Origin: Bacillota bacterium
Lineage (GTDB): Bacteria; Bacillota_E; JAJZYS01; JAILZS01
Length of the DNA: 8,510 bases
Reading direction: 5' to 3'
NCBI GenBank assembly: GCA_021817625.1
Contig: JAKASY010000059.1
Span: 1 to 8,510 of the forward strand
The notes under the pieces were generated by a model. The model did not search any database. It was not told where the DNA came from and was given only the letters and a program-made list of their open reading frames with translations. Of the stretch, positions 2,880-8,212 are shown one piece after another; the first letter of the stretch is position 1; each line of letters begins with the position of its first letter. A program made the position numbers and the translations under genes.

Positions 2880-3674
2880 ATGGATCAGTCGCTCTTCGTC
2901 GCCGGCGTCGACGCTGCGCCGGACACGCCTTCACAAGCGCTCGAAACGGCCCTCACGGCGCTCTCGGACCAGCTCAGGGCCCTACGCTCCGCTACGGGCC
3001 GTGTGCTCCGCGCCAGGGATGGCATGGACGTTCTCGCGCTGCGCGCCCGGGTGCCGTCGCTGCCGGACGTCCTCGACGCTACCCGGCTCGCCGTCGCAGA
3101 TGCCCAGGCGGCGCTTTCGGCCACGCCGCCCGGCGCGGCACTGAGCGAGCGTTACCCCCAGGCCCTCGAAGCTGAGTTCCGGCGCGCCGGCCTCGAGTTC
3201 GAGGGAGCGTTTCCCGAATACGAGATCTTCCCCCTGACCGTACGGGTCAACGTGGATGGCGAGAGCGTGCGGATCGGACGGCGCACCGTTCAGACGCTCG
3301 ACCCCCGCGCCGCCGCACTCGCGGTACAGAAGGATCACCGCCGCCTGCACGGGTCGAGCTTCAACGCCCCACGCTTTCTCGACGCTCTGGCGCTGTGCTA
3401 TGACGCGCTCTCCGGCGGCCAGTCGGGCAGTCCCGTGCCGCTCATCGACGTCTACCGCCTGCTCAGCGCTCGCACGGGCGCTACCGGGTACACACGTCAG
3501 GAGTTCGCGTTCGACATCTACCGGGTCCGCCGTCAGTCTGACCTCATCGTGAAGGGCCGCACAGTCGAATTCAGCCACGGCAAGTCGGGTACGCAGTTCG
3601 CCGTGCCGCGAGCGCAGGGGGGCGCGGAGATCTTCAGAGCGCTGGTCTTGCGGAAGGCGCTGCCCGGTGGCTGA
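2880..3674 (+). CDS. Gene A: unrecognised 264-aa protein opening the BREX-like operon
   Basis: ATG 2880 is chosen over the upstream in-frame GTG 2688 because AGGAGG (2869-2874) sits 5 nt before it and the added 64 residues look non-coding. Residues 18-80 are Ala/Leu/Arg-rich and helical, possibly coiled coil. A linker (about 82-92) leads into a mixed domain from about residue 92: RYPQALEAEFRRAGLEFEG, then FPEYEIFPLTVRVNVDG, then a helical stretch with FNAPRFLDALALCYDAL, then a C-terminal part with YTRQEFAFDIYRVRRQSDL and GRTVEFSHGKSGTQFAVP. There is no P-loop, methyltransferase motif, CxxC or membrane segment. I do not recognise the family. Its frame overlaps the next ATPase gene by 8 nt, so it is very probably a stoichiometric partner of the downstream ATPases, for example a DNA-binding, adaptor or small BrxA/BrxB/BrxF-like accessory protein. 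That role is inference from position only; none of those families was recognised in it. Confidence 0.85.
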   Translation: MDQSLFVAGVDAAPDTPSQALETALTALSDQLRALRSATGRVLRARDGMDVLALRARVPSLPDVLDATRLAVADAQAALSATPPGAALSERYPQALEAEFRRAGLEFEGAFPEYEIFPLTVRVNVDGESVRIGRRTVQTLDPRAAALAVQKDHRRLHGSSFNAPRFLDALALCYDALSGGQSGSPVPLIDVYRLLSARTGATGYTRQEFAFDIYRVRRQSDLIVKGRTVEFSHGKSGTQFAVPRAQGGAEIFRALVLRKALPGG

Positions 3675-4842
3675 CCCAGTGGCCGCGCGCGCGTTCGTCG
3701 ACCCCGCAGGCCTCGTCGCGTTCTGGCGCCAGGCCTACCTCGAAGACTACGTGCGCGATGGCGGCGCCTCGGTGAAGTGGCTGCGCGGCAGCGAGGGCAG
3801 CGGCAAGACGCGCGTGCTGGAAGCCGTGGAGGACACGGCGCGCCAGCTCGGCTACACGACCGCCCGGATCGACGCCGGAACCGTGCCCCTCGGGCGCTTC
3901 GACGAAGTGTACCGGGCCGTCATGCGTGAGATGCCCGTCGAGCGTCTCGCCCAAGCCGTGGCCCAGCGGGCGGCTCGTGCCGTGGGCGCCGCCCCTTGGT
4001 CCGCCGGCGGCCAGCTGAGCGTCCAGGACTACCTTGTCCACGAGGGCCGGCCCCTTGCCGCCATCGAGGACGGCCTCGCCCGCTGCCTCGATTTTCTGTA
4101 CGCCAGTCACGAGCTCGAGCCCCCGGTCGCGGCCGCGGCGCGTCGCCTGGCCCTCCCCTACCTCACGGGCAGCGACGTCGCTCGCACCGAAGCCGCCGCC
4201 GCCGCGCGCTGGCTGCGTGGGGAGCGCCTACCAGCCGCGGAGCGGCGGCGCACAGGCATCTACCTTGCCGTGGATCGCTACAGCGCGCGTGACATCCTGC
4301 GGTCGCTCCTGTTCCTGATGCGCATGTGCGGCATGCCGGGCATGGTCTGGACGGTCGACGGACTGGAGCGCTTGCTCGTGACCCGCCGCCTCGAGCGCCT
4401 GGACGGAGCTGGGGCCTCACCTCCCACCGCCGTCCGCTATACGGCCACGAGGCGCCTCGACGCGTACGAGGGGATCCGCGAGCTCATTGACGAGACGGGG
4501 TCCCTCCCTGGCCTCCTCGTCGTCTACGCGGGGCGCCCGGAGGCGTTCGACGATGAGCGCGCCGGCCTTATCACCTACCCGGCCCTGGCGATGCGCGTTC
4601 AGACGGAGGTCGAGGCCGACGCGATCAATCCGTATAACGATGTGCAGGACCTGGACCGCCTGTGGCAGAGCGACTGGCCGCGCCACCAGCGCGCCCTGGT
4701 GACGGCCTACCGCAACGGCGCCGACGTGGCAGAGCTCGACCTCTCGACCGCGCTGGCCAGCGCGCACATCTCACCCGTGCGGCGCTTGGTGGAGCTACTT
4801 ACGGCAGGCAGCAGCACGGGGGACGGTGTCGCCCATGCCTGA
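3667..4842 (+). CDS. Gene B: divergent P-loop ATPase, likely BrxD/DUF2791-related paralogue
   Basis: The 391-aa protein starts at GTG 3667, overlapping the end of gene A in GTGGCTGA; GGAAGG (3652-3657) lies 9 nt upstream. A clear Walker A motif, GSEGSGKT, is at residues 41-48, followed by a helix and a strand (LGYTTARIDAGTVPLGRFDEVYRAV) laid out as in BrxD-like ATPases, where the segment after the P-loop leads to VYRxV. The likely Walker B is MVWTVDGLERLL (residues 226-237). It keeps the Asp (D231) but has Gly where the catalytic Glu normally follows, so hydrolysis may be weak or absent. LLVVYAGRPEAF (283-294) occupies the place of a sensor strand. The two ATPases of this operon share this layout but little sequence, so a BrxD relationship is inferred from architecture and context. 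It may act as the regulatory half of a hetero-oligomeric ATPase with gene C. Confidence 0.85.
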   Translation: MADPVAARAFVDPAGLVAFWRQAYLEDYVRDGGASVKWLRGSEGSGKTRVLEAVEDTARQLGYTTARIDAGTVPLGRFDEVYRAVMREMPVERLAQAVAQRAARAVGAAPWSAGGQLSVQDYLVHEGRPLAAIEDGLARCLDFLYASHELEPPVAAAARRLALPYLTGSDVARTEAAAAARWLRGERLPAAERRRTGIYLAVDRYSARDILRSLLFLMRMCGMPGMVWTVDGLERLLVTRRLERLDGAGASPPTAVRYTATRRLDAYEGIRELIDETGSLPGLLVVYAGRPEAFDDERAGLITYPALAMRVQTEVEADAINPYNDVQDLDRLWQSDWPRHQRALVTAYRNGADVAELDLSTALASAHISPVRRLVELLTAGSSTGDGVAHA

Positions 4843-6070
4843 GACATCGCGCGTCGTCGTCGAGCACCTGCGCTCGGGGGTGCCCTCACCGGAGGTCGCT
4901 GCCGCCCTGAGCGGCGCCCGTGAACCCCTCCTCCAGGCGCTCGAGCGCGACATGGAGGCACGGTCCCAGGGCGACTCGACGCGGCCGTTTCAGACGATCA
5001 CCGCAAACTACGGCGATGGCAAGAGCCACGTTCTCAACGCCCTATGGCTCAGGGCGCGTCAGCGCGGCTGGCTGGTCAGCACGGCAACCGTGAGCCGCGA
5101 GTCGCCGCTGGATCAGGTCGAGCGCGTGTACCGCAAGGTGGCCGCCCGCACATTCATGCCCGGGGTCGGCCGACCGGGCCTGGGTCCCCTGCTTGACGCG
5201 GTGAGCGTACGCCCCGACACCGTGGAGCGCCTCATGGCCCAGGCGTGGCGCGACCTCCACCCCAAGGTGGCACTGGCACTGGAGGCGCGCCTGCGCGGTC
5301 GCGGCGACCCCGTAACGGTGGACGAGGACCTGCATGGGTACCGGCGCTCGGTGGCGGACATCCGCCGCGCCTACCACGAGCGTACCGGCGACGCGCCGCC
5401 GAAGGTCGATCGGTACCGAGTCGGCGAGCACGCCTTCGACTACTTTCGCCTCGTCGACGCGCTGGTCCACGCCCTCGAGCTGCCGGGCTGGCTCCTCCTG
5501 TTCGACGAGGTGGAGATGGTGGCGAGCCTCGGGCGCCTGGGCCGAGCGCGCTCGTACGCGTTCATAGGCCAGGTGACCGACGGGCGCCTCCTCCCACATG
5601 CGTTCAGCGTCTGGATGGTGTCCACGAACTTCCGCACGCGCGTGGTGGACGAGCTGGACGATGCGGCGAATCTACCGGCCTGGCTGGCCGAGCGCGGACA
5701 CGAGGGGCTTGTGCGCCAGGTGGCCCGTCCGCTCGCCGCTCTGGTAGGTGCCGCGGCCCTGCCGCCGCTCGGCGCCGATGACCTACGGCGCACGTTCGAG
5801 GCCATCCTTGCCGCCCACGCGGCCGCCCTCTCCTGGCAGCCGCCGCTCGACGGCGCGGCCCTCCTCGAACGCATCCGCGCCCAGATGCCGGAGCGGGACG
5901 CCAAGGTGCGCCAGCTCGTGCGCGCCGCAGTGCAGTACCTCGACCTCCTGCAGCGCTACGGCACCGAGCCCCGCCTGGTCGTAAGGTCGGTGGCCGAGGC
6001 CACGGTGCGGCCCGAAGAGGAGGAGCCGCCGGAAGGCACGGTGGTGTCCCGCGACTGGCCGGACGCCTGA
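4835..6070 (+). CDS. brxD: Gene C: BrxD-type ATP-binding protein of BREX systems (DUF2791-like)
   Basis: This 411-aa P-loop ATPase opens with a stretch typical of BrxD: VVVEHLRSGVPSPEVAAAL (residues 7-25), a helix, then TITANYGDGKSHVLNAL carrying the Walker A at 57-64 (ANYGDGKS, with Ala in place of the first Gly). VSTATVSRESPLDQVERVYRKV (two parts, about 81-102) is also BrxD-like. Walker B is LLLFDEVEMV (221-230) with an intact Asp-Glu pair D224/E225, so it should hydrolyse ATP. A sensor-like strand, VWMVSTNFR, is at 259-267. The C-terminus is helical and ends in an acidic tail (EEEEPPEG). BrxD is found in BREX types 2 and 6. ATG 4835 is chosen over GTG 4826: the GGGGGA stretch (4818-4823) is too close to the GTG, and ATG 4835 recreates the same 8-nt stop/start overlap (ATGCCTGA) as the previous junction. 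Expected to be cytoplasmic, working with the other operon products. Confidence 0.88.
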   Translation: MPETSRVVVEHLRSGVPSPEVAAALSGAREPLLQALERDMEARSQGDSTRPFQTITANYGDGKSHVLNALWLRARQRGWLVSTATVSRESPLDQVERVYRKVAARTFMPGVGRPGLGPLLDAVSVRPDTVERLMAQAWRDLHPKVALALEARLRGRGDPVTVDEDLHGYRRSVADIRRAYHERTGDAPPKVDRYRVGEHAFDYFRLVDALVHALELPGWLLLFDEVEMVASLGRLGRARSYAFIGQVTDGRLLPHAFSVWMVSTNFRTRVVDELDDAANLPAWLAERGHEGLVRQVARPLAALVGAAALPPLGADDLRRTFEAILAAHAAALSWQPPLDGAALLERIRAQMPERDAKVRQLVRAAVQYLDLLQRYGTEPRLVVRSVAEATVRPEEEEPPEGTVVSRDWPDA

Positions 6071-6071
6071 G

Positions 6072-8087
6072 ATGAGCCGGGCGGAGCGTGACGCCCAGGT
6101 CGAGCGCGTCTTCGGCGCCCTCGGTACGCCCGTCATCCTGCCCAAGGGCCTCGTGCAGGAGGTGCCTGCCTTGGCGCGCGTCCCGCGCTACGTGGCAGAG
6201 TTCCTCCTGGCTCGGCAGCGCGACCCCGCCGCTGCCGTGGGTCAAGTCGCCGACTACGTCGGCCAACTTCACCCGGCGCCCGAGGACCGCTCGGAGTGGC
6301 GCTATCGCCTGGTGCGCGACAACCGTCTACGTCTCCTCGACGAGATCCTGGTGCAAGTGGACGTGTACCACGGCGTCTACACGACGCGCATCCCATCGAT
6401 TGACCTCACCGTCCTCGTCGACAGCGACGTGGTCGAGGCGCACAAACAGCTCTTGTCCGGCGGTCTCTGGGGCTTGTGCGAGCTTACGAGGGAACCCGAT
6501 CCCGGTGCGGACGACGGGGGCTACCTCGTGCAGCTGAGGGACTTTCACCCCGTCCAGGTGCGGGCGCGCCTCGACCCGTTCGTCGACAACCGCTTCTACT
6601 TCACGACGGCCGACTGGATCGACCTCCTGCTCGTCTCGTCGGGATACGACCCGGACGTCATGGTCGAGGACTGCCCCGACGACGGTGCCGCTTTGCGCCG
6701 CAAGCTGCTCCTCCTGTGCCGGCTTGCGCCTGCCGTCGAACCGAGCCTCCACCTTCTGGAGCTCGGGCCGCGCAATACGGGCAAGACATACCTCCTGCGC
6801 AGCCTCTCGAGCCGCGTGTTCGTGCTGTCGGGGGCGAGAGGCACGCCGGCCAGCCTGTTCGTCAACTTGACGACCCGCGCACCGGGCATCCTCGTGAACC
6901 GCGCCGTGGCCGTGTTCGACGAGGTGGCGCGCCTCGATCTTGGCAGCGCGGAGACCGCGGCCACCATGAAGGACTACCTCGAGGCCGGCCGCTTCACCCG
7001 CGGCGGTCTGGCCTTCACGACCGCTTGCTCGTCGGTGTTCCTCGGCAACATCGACGTGGACCAGGGTCAGCCCGCGCGCCGATACCGCAGCCTGGTCGAC
7101 CCACTGCCCCCAGATCTGCGGGACGCAGCCTTCCTCGACCGCATCCACGGCTACCTGCCGGGTTGGGAGATTCCCAAGATGCGGCCGGCCTCGTTTGCGC
7201 AAGGTGTCGGCTTCATCTCGGACTACTTCGGCGAGGCTCTGGTGCGCCTGCGCGACCTGCCGTTCGAGAGTGCCTTTCGCGAAATGGCCGGCGCGTACGA
7301 CCTCGAGCCGGGCATGACCCAGCGCGACCGCGTCGCCGTGGAGCGCGTCGCCCGTGCCCTGCTGAAGCTCGTGTTCCCCCACGGTCGCACGGACGCCCCC
7401 GGCGACGAGACGGTTGTTGCGGCGATCCTGTCAGTGGCTGGGGAGTTGCGCCAGCGCATCCACGGCGCGCTTGTGCGGTTGGCGCCAGGTGAGTACCAGG
7501 AGCGCGCGATCGGCTATGCGGGCGCGCCGCCCACCCCTGCCGCCGACCTTGCGCTGGGGGAGCGCGCGGACGCCCGCCTATCCGTTGCACCCGGTGCCGC
7601 CTACTATCTCGACATCGGCGTCGAGGGCATGGAGGGCGGCGGGGAGATCCGGGCCATAGAGGTGACCGTGCTGCCCGCACCAGGGCTACACGTGCACGGC
7701 GACGCAGCGGTGGCGCGCGTGGCACGAATGGTCCGCGACTACTTACAGGCGCATATGGCCCTCCTCTCCCTGCCCACTGGCTGGCTCGACGAGCGCGGCC
7801 TGGCCGTCCAGGTTCCCGAGAGTGTGCGCGACCCGGAGGCGGCGGCCCTCGCCATCCTGATCGCCATGGCGAGCGCGCTACGCAAGGTGCGGGCGGATCG
7901 TCCGCGGGTGGCCGTTGGCGCGGCGACGCTTCACGGCCGACTCGACTGCCCGCCGGACCTTGCCGCACGGCTGCGCGGCCTGCCGCCGGGCGTGCACCTG
8001 GCCCTGCCGACGGCGGCGGTGCTGCTCGGCATCGACGTGAGCCGCTACCGTTTGGTCGAAGACTTCGAGGCAGCGCTCCAGCTGTGA
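6072..8087 (+). CDS. brxL: Gene D: BrxL-type AAA+ protein with Lon-like C-terminal domain
   Basis: BrxL is a DNA-associated AAA+ effector of BREX types 1 and 4. The 671-aa length is normal for BrxL. The N-terminal domain (about 1-225) has the expected VPRYVAEFLLA, QLLSGGLWGLCEL and FTTADWIDLLL blocks. The AAA+ core follows: Walker A GPRNTGKT (232-239), VLSGARGTPASLFVNL (251-266), Walker B VAVFDEV with D283/E284, DYLEAGRFTRGG (301-312), sensor-like FLGNID (323-328) and the hallmark DRIHGYLPGWEIPKMRP (356-372). LLKLVFP (430-436) matches the conserved end of the core. Residues about 500-671 resemble the Lon protease fold, but the stretch aligning with the Ser loop (VPESVRDPEAAALA, 581-594) has no Ser at the catalytic place, and the Lys region (TLHGRLDCPPDLAARL) has no Lys, so proteolysis is unlikely. 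It starts one base after gene C with no strong Shine-Dalgarno, so translation is probably coupled. Confidence 0.93.
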   Translation: MSRAERDAQVERVFGALGTPVILPKGLVQEVPALARVPRYVAEFLLARQRDPAAAVGQVADYVGQLHPAPEDRSEWRYRLVRDNRLRLLDEILVQVDVYHGVYTTRIPSIDLTVLVDSDVVEAHKQLLSGGLWGLCELTREPDPGADDGGYLVQLRDFHPVQVRARLDPFVDNRFYFTTADWIDLLLVSSGYDPDVMVEDCPDDGAALRRKLLLLCRLAPAVEPSLHLLELGPRNTGKTYLLRSLSSRVFVLSGARGTPASLFVNLTTRAPGILVNRAVAVFDEVARLDLGSAETAATMKDYLEAGRFTRGGLAFTTACSSVFLGNIDVDQGQPARRYRSLVDPLPPDLRDAAFLDRIHGYLPGWEIPKMRPASFAQGVGFISDYFGEALVRLRDLPFESAFREMAGAYDLEPGMTQRDRVAVERVARALLKLVFPHGRTDAPGDETVVAAILSVAGELRQRIHGALVRLAPGEYQERAIGYAGAPPTPAADLALGERADARLSVAPGAAYYLDIGVEGMEGGGEIRAIEVTVLPAPGLHVHGDAAVARVARMVRDYLQAHMALLSLPTGWLDERGLAVQVPESVRDPEAAALAILIAMASALRKVRADRPRVAVGAATLHGRLDCPPDLAARLRGLPPGVHLALPTAAVLLGIDVSRYRLVEDFEAALQL

Positions 8088-8101
8088 CGGTGCAGCCAAC
8101 T

Positions 8102-8130
8102 GACCGGCGTGGTGAAGGCATAAGCCGGTC
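8102..8130 (+). terminator. Possible hairpin 3' of brxL
   Basis: GACCGGC (8102-8108) pairs perfectly with GCCGGTC (8124-8130) across a 15-nt loop, starting 15 bases after the brxL stop. No T-run follows, so if it ends transcription it would need Rho or act mainly as a 3' stabiliser. It could also be an operator for a downstream gene. Confidence 0.3.
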
Positions 8131-8212
8131 GGCCGAACACTTGGAGTGCGAGCGGACGCAGCCTTCGGGCCCGATCATGCCCAAATCGAAGTTACCCGCC
8201 TGGATTAGTCGG

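Follow-up and report, generated by a model that had tools for sequence, protein, structure and literature searches.

The subject of this report is a tight operon of four genes, A to D, all on the + strand at positions 2880-8087 of an 8,510-base stretch of a Bacillota bacterium contig (JAKASY010000059.1), the whole of which we call the window. Gene calls and family matches agree with an earlier note on this DNA, which had read the locus as a cassette of two ATPases, BrxL and a 264-residue protein without a family. The similarities behind these matches far exceed what chance would produce. Specifically, gene A (2880-3674, 264 residues) encodes a protein with a predicted N-terminal helical hairpin and C-terminal winged helix, genes B (3667-4842, 391 residues) and C (4826-6070, 414 residues) encode BrxD-like ATPases, and gene D (6072-8087, 671 residues) encodes BrxL. 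A and B overlap by 8 nucleotides, B and C by 17 (or 8, counting from the ATG at 4835), and one nucleotide separates C from D. Beyond this composition, our results reveal that A-B-C forms an independently conserved module, and that the slot behind it, held by BrxL in the window, is occupied by other DNA motors in most relatives where it can be read.

The assignment of gene D as BrxL, already proposed in the earlier note, is firm. The protein passes the NCBIfam BrxL cut-off (TIGR02688, 337.7 versus 329.3 bits) and carries the BrxL N-terminal domain (BrxL_N, 6138-6485; PF20442, expectation value (E) 7.7e-19), followed by the BrxL_ATPase domain (6531-7505; PF13337, 5.8e-83). The Walker A motif of D, GPRNTGKT (6765-6788), has G232, P233 and N235-T239 invariant in 24 aligned sequences including the window's, and its Walker B motif, FDE (6915-6923), has F282, D283 and E284 invariant in the same 24. 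Residues 21-631 align with the BrxL structure PDB 8emc (E 5.9e-56), and E284 occupies the position of the Walker B glutamate replaced by glutamine in PDB 8emh. The Lon-like C-terminal region (7632-7943) matches PF05362 at E 0.084 only and lacks the catalytic serine motif; PSAG, which we take to be that motif in Lon, occurs in 0 of the 26 members of the clade to which D belongs. This is in line with the published loss of the Lon active site, BrxL being described as having no conserved one (PMC10164562). The clade itself, recovered by FastTree among 166 BrxL sequences, joins the window's D and 25 relatives (P0133-P0157) with a support of 1.0 on a stem of 0.91. In the alignment of 24, D is 44-76% identical to 23 of those 25 relatives; to the listed hits outside the clade it shows 37-45% local identity.

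B and C both belong to the Pfam family PF10923, BrxC_BrxD (4.6e-26 and 1e-15, respectively). The earlier note had singled out C as BrxD; its place in the family stands, but B is in fact nearer BrxD than C, and both fall far below the 350-bit cut-off of the BrxD equivalog NF033438 (91 bits for B, 44.8 for C). B has an intact P-loop, GSEGSGKT (3787-3810). In C, an alanine replaces the first glycine of the P-loop, whose core reads GDGKSH (5012-5029), and the Walker B motif LLLFDE (5492-5509) was read in the sequence. Among the 27 relatives with C, the 14 that were read all have a GKSH or GKTH core and keep an acidic Walker B.

At an E threshold of 1, protein A matched no model of Pfam, NCBIfam or PADLOC; its 11 close relatives are 40-91% identical to it. 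Its AlphaFold2 model (predicted local distance difference test score, pLDDT, 89.3) places two long helices in a coiled-coil-like hairpin at residues 17-81 (2928-3122), where structural matches span residues 9-86 only, and a winged-helix-like domain at residues 160-263 (3357-3668). Judging by this predicted winged helix, A is likely a DNA-binding protein or adaptor.

Conservation of A-B-C and exchange of the motor behind it

A profile of A was used to survey the phylum of an Anaerolineae genome (G001), taken as Chloroflexota, and gave 30 loci in 29 genomes. It was found in 13 of the 400 genomes of the phylum draw, and class-wise searches, whose genome sets overlap one another, found it in 5/29 (all known), 5/110 (2 new), 2/41 (known), 12/245 (10 new), 5/190 (all new, one dropped), 1/177 (known), 0/47 and 0/158 genomes. 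One genome (G756) was left out of these counts, its A match having an E of 4.8e-4 and an in-frame TAG, with no A, B or C in its locus (L155). B adjoins A in 30 of the 30 loci and C comes next in 27, adjacent, in the same order and on one strand, as in the window; in the other three (L093, L104 and L159) the contig ends first.

The gene after C varies among these 27 relatives. A helicase follows in 19, of which 16 are SNF2, two XPB-type and one BrxHI/Shango-type. Specifically, 12 loci carry a further gene, E, and then SNF2 (L095, L096, L099, L100, L101, L105, L129, L141, L144, L145, L148 and L150), four carry SNF2 without a detected E (L147, L149, L157 and L161), two have an XPB-type helicase of 510 residues (L102 and L130), and one has a helicase matching both BrxHI and Shango SngC (L160). 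The contig ends after E in one more (L098), and at or inside C in four (L097, L142, L143 and L146). The SNF2 proteins are themselves of more than one make, as three of the eight scanned with Pfam include an Mrr nuclease domain (L095, L096 and L100) and five do not (L099, L101, L105, L129 and L161). BrxL follows C in 0 of the 27 relatives, and in the window the ATP-dependent DNA motor after C is BrxL. Since 19 relatives have a helicase where the window has D, we infer that BrxL fills the motor slot here, which parallels the way BrxL and helicases are reported to replace one another within BREX (PMC12839542, PMC10164562, PMC11842806).

Relatives of the individual proteins were looked for in further collections. 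Plasmid records gave no match to A or C, two to B (in Streptomyces and Rhodococcus, both brxD, at 29.3 and 27.5%) and 312 to D, the best at 31-41% identity. Viral contigs held no relative of A or B, and a BrxL profile built from the D clade and others found 17 viral loci, none holding A. With the D-clade profile, no genome of the 400 in the phylum of G001 reached 1e-150, at most two candidates being scored per genome. A profile scan of genome contigs for BrxL gave, among the matches listed, BrxLs of 26-30% identity; these being the best rows of a longer list, the absence of close relatives does not follow from it.

Several individual loci deserve description. Gene E encodes a conserved protein of ~190 residues between C and SNF2 in 13 of the 27 loci, counting L098, which is cut before the helicase (examples are L095, 12281-12766, and L096, 4122-4706); five of these proteins scanned with Pfam gave no match. 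At L160 (6884-11870), A, two PF10923 ATPases that both have P-loops and the BrxHI/SngC-type helicase form one operon, the B of which matches the PADLOC BrxD model at 6.2e-42; the locus may connect Shango and the BREX type 2 dyad to the A-B-C family. At L094 (7132-10439), the gene directly after A-B-C is convergent and no motor is present. At L103 (12567-14624), the product of the convergent gene behind the module has a phospholipase D (PLD)-type nuclease domain and gives weak AAA-type matches. Two A-B-C loci lie in a single genome (G676); L157 has an SNF2 helicase and L158 is motor-less.

Relation to BREX

The operon was earlier described as BREX-derived, and BrxL is reported as specific to BREX types 1 and 4 (PMC12839542). 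The window shares with these types a BrxL with BrxL_N, BrxL_ATPase and a Lon-like end, and BrxC/BrxD-family ATPases in the same operon; it differs in having no PglZ, methyltransferase or 1,200-residue BrxC, and in that D belongs to its own clade. As the earlier note had stated, no pglZ, pglX or other methyltransferase gene, or brxC, was found in the 8.5-kb window, here by dedicated models and by scanning its six proteins with Pfam and NCBIfam. The large BrxC/PglY ATPase (~1,200-1,300 residues) is likewise absent from the window, where the only PF10923 proteins are B and C. The BrxD-BrxHI dyad of BREX type 2 offers a second comparison. Both arrangements set a BrxD-type ATPase beside a DNA motor, and at L160 a BrxHI-type helicase accompanies two BrxD-like ATPases, whereas in the window the ATPases score 91 and 45 bits against the required 350, the motor is BrxL and no other BREX gene is present.

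The separation from BREX extends to the relatives. Models of PglZ and PglX were built from the 80 BrxL loci listed, and the same loci served as the positive control, so the recovery of PglZ in 77/80 and PglX in 58/80 is somewhat flattering. Neither model found a match in the 30 A-B-C stretches (which are shorter than the BrxL loci, with a median of 13.2 versus 17.6 kb and the shortest at ~3 kb), in 7 control stretches or in the window; PglX is the self-modification gene covered, and no search was aimed at PAPS reductase. Conversely, A, B and C of this kind occur in 0 of the 80 BREX BrxL loci. As far as the stretches read extend, these results support a module without PglZ or PglX. "BREX-derived" is too strong a term, because the D clade is a long, separate BrxL branch and the A-B-C relatives go with BrxHI/Shango, XPB and SNF2 helicases.

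One alternative is that the operon forms one end of a larger BREX-like locus, with pglZ, a modification gene and other components on the rest of the contig. It draws on the reported specificity of BrxL for two BREX types and on the extent of the window, in which 423 bases follow D; the contig, where D is listed as P0132, is 15,167 bases long, leaving ~6.7 kb of surroundings beyond the bases read. We hold it to be improbable, given that PglZ and PglX were found in none of the 30 A-B-C stretches and A, B and C of this type in none of the 80 BREX BrxL loci, that D stands apart from the other BrxLs in the tree, and that the upstream neighbor, a YNCE/lactonase-like propeller gene, belongs to no BREX family.

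A possible defence role and the proposed loading of BrxL

Among other known systems, Shango consists of a TerB-like protein, an ATPase and a helicase (PMC10250203). The window resembles it in combining a small protein, a PF10923-type ATPase and a motor without a modification gene, and B matches the PADLOC model of its ATPase, SngB, at 9e-11. It differs in having two ATPases rather than one, and BrxL instead of the DEAD/DEAH helicase SngC; no TerB-like match was found for A in the libraries searched at E 1, which may hold no TerB model. PbeABCD, which is also a four-gene cassette, was considered and rejected, as PbeA is an HKD nuclease-SF2 helicase, PbeC a CxC ABC ATPase and PbeD a DndE (PMC6459918), none of which is in the window. 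The motors of the A-B-C relatives match the defence models ZorD, DpdE, BrxHI and SngC, and it is from these kinds of motor, together with the patchy occurrence of the module, that we infer a defence role; the operon is probably anti-phage.

How such an operon might act can be hypothesized from published views of its parts. BrxD is classed among the AAA+ ATPases of ORC/Cdc6 type and has been suggested to load BrxHI (PMC12839542). BrxL is described as a ring that encircles DNA and whose ATPase and N-terminal regions resemble those of MCM (PMC10164562), and the pair of BrxC and BrxL has been likened to ORC and MCM (PMC11842806). The role of BrxL in restriction is called unresolved (PMC13326643). 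The suggestion of the earlier note that the ATPases load BrxL fits these accounts (PMC12839542, PMC10164562, PMC11842806). Given an ORC/Cdc6-type pair, an MCM-like ring and a winged-helix adaptor together, with nothing else in view, a loader (A-B-C) with a plug-in motor is the best-supported arrangement. On balance, we lean toward a modular, four-gene anti-invader family in which A is an adaptor, B and C are ORC/Cdc6-type ATPases and the DNA motor, here BrxL, is exchangeable. First, A would recognize or mark incoming or replicating DNA through its winged helix. B and C, using ATP, would then engage this DNA and either load the BrxL ring so that it encircles double-stranded DNA or release it. 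Finally, the ring would block replication, without a dedicated nuclease.

Several observations weigh against this reading. First, the window is the only locus in which all four genes were observed in the order A-B-C-D; conservation of the order, for which the earlier note had proposed a survey, extends to A-B-C, with no BrxL after C in the relatives. The genomes searched (the phylum of G001, whole draw and classes) held distant relatives of A only and no close one. Two relatives of D, P0133 and P0134 (contigs of 13,020 and 10,646 bases), have no matching A, and one relative of A, P0002 (15,925 bases), has no matching D; contig ends or loose linkage could explain these unpaired cases. In favor of a wider association of A with BrxL stand two A/D pairs that apparently share contigs (P0009/P0137, 322,858 bases; P0006/P0135, 14,835 bases), the only such evidence beyond the window; the pairing consists in equal contig size and two or three shared sources, with B and C unseen there. 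Second, A-B-C has no adjoining motor in 3 of the 27 relatives (L094, L103 and L158). Third, the P-loop of B is lost in 24 of 27 readable relatives and intact in three (L094, L142, which equals L132, and L160), a count that leaves out L150 (equal to L140), L159 and L161. Two active loaders are therefore not general, and since C keeps its core, most of the family would pair one active with one inactive-looking ATPase; the window has two P-loops. Even there, the Walker B of B reads D-G-L-E, without the usual glutamate directly after the aspartate, which may favor binding more than hydrolysis. Fourth, in a comparison covering 7 of the 30 loci (71 flanking versus 94 control proteins, grouped into families at 1e-15), defence matches were not clearly more frequent among the flanking proteins than among the controls. 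The flanking set formed 45 families, and the 25 listed include a type I restriction subunit, HEC-06, PDC-M57 and PDC-S11, with one match each to ZacA, ZacB and ZacC; the control set formed 33 families, and the 25 listed include HEC-05, PDC-M05A, PycC and methyltransferases. Finally, when BrxL was assayed in published work, helicase activity was not conclusively demonstrated (PMC10164562).

A bolder form of the loading model, which we regard as unlikely, would liken the operon to the MCM-loading machine of eukaryotes and archaea, reduced to a minimum and put to immune use. Two ORC/Cdc6-like ATPases and a coiled-coil/winged-helix adaptor, similar to Cdt1 in layout only, would load an MCM-like BrxL double ring onto foreign DNA, without modification or nuclease. 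In relatives, this loader would drive SNF2 or SNF2-Mrr, XPB-type or BrxHI-type motors, which would make the loader the core of the system and the motor a plug-in, and the whole a defence family separate from BREX.

ORC/Cdc6 and MCM are replication folds, and the operon might accordingly have no defence function but serve as an accessory unit of DNA replication, repair or maintenance, built from ORC/Cdc6-like loaders and an MCM-like ring. The winged-helix-like domain of A and the lack of a clear defence signal in the flanking genes would suit such a unit. Its patchy occurrence, in 13 of the 400 genomes drawn, would not, nor would the other motors (SNF2, SNF2-Mrr and BrxHI/SngC-type), which match defence-protein models, or the fact that BrxL is known from phage restriction (PMC10164562), and we rate this explanation as about as improbable as that of a larger BREX locus. 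Similarly improbable is a helper unit acting in trans with BREX or Shango elsewhere in the genome. In its favor, one genome with a motor-less A-B-C (G139, L094) has, on a different contig (L108), BrxL next to a PglZ-like gene, whose PglZ match of 23.3 bits is just below the Pfam cut-off of 25. Against it, no more than 2 of the 13 A-B-C genomes obtained first have BrxL_ATPase, both times on other contigs beside a PglZ-like gene, and most A-B-C loci readable past C bring their own motor.

A BrxD-type ATPase with a DNA motor is a known kind of arrangement. The listings and passages covered by the literature search contain no description of BrxL with BrxD-like ATPases outside BREX, nor of A-B-C with SNF2. 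The published analogy in which ORC loads MCM, applied to BrxC/BrxD with BrxL/BrxH, is hard to test inside multi-gene, DNA-modifying systems. An operon that joins BrxL to a pair of small ATPases of ORC/Cdc6 type, and in which no modification gene is seen, would offer a direct test bed for BrxL loading. Further, the exchange of BrxL for SNF2, XPB-type or BrxHI-type motors behind A-B-C repeats, outside BREX, a swap known within it. Operons of A-B-C with a helicase may form a defence family in their own right, for which A, having no model in PADLOC 2023, Pfam or NCBIfam, provides a marker gene.

Features flanking the operon

Gene A is preceded by a ribosome-binding site, AGGAGGGG (2869-2876, + strand), read directly in the sequence and rated strong, and by an intergenic gap of 337 bases (2543-2879), the length given in the earlier note. 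That note had also pointed to a possible hairpin 3' of D. It exists, with arms at 8100-8108 and 8124-8132, though a T-run is lacking; terminator calling gave nothing after D, and 8085-8180 folds no better than shuffled sequence (z -0.43).

Upstream of the gap, the propeller gene (1073-2542) encodes an N-terminal DUF2249 fused to the YNCE/lactonase-like beta-propeller. Farther upstream lies a carboxymuconolactone-decarboxylase gene (374-979) with an in-frame TGA (617-619) at the second cysteine of a CxxC motif and a further in-frame TAG at 797-799. The RNA downstream of the TGA folds no better than shuffled sequence, and selenocysteine at the TGA, a pseudogene and sequence errors are all possible; the Pfam match covers both sides of the TGA.

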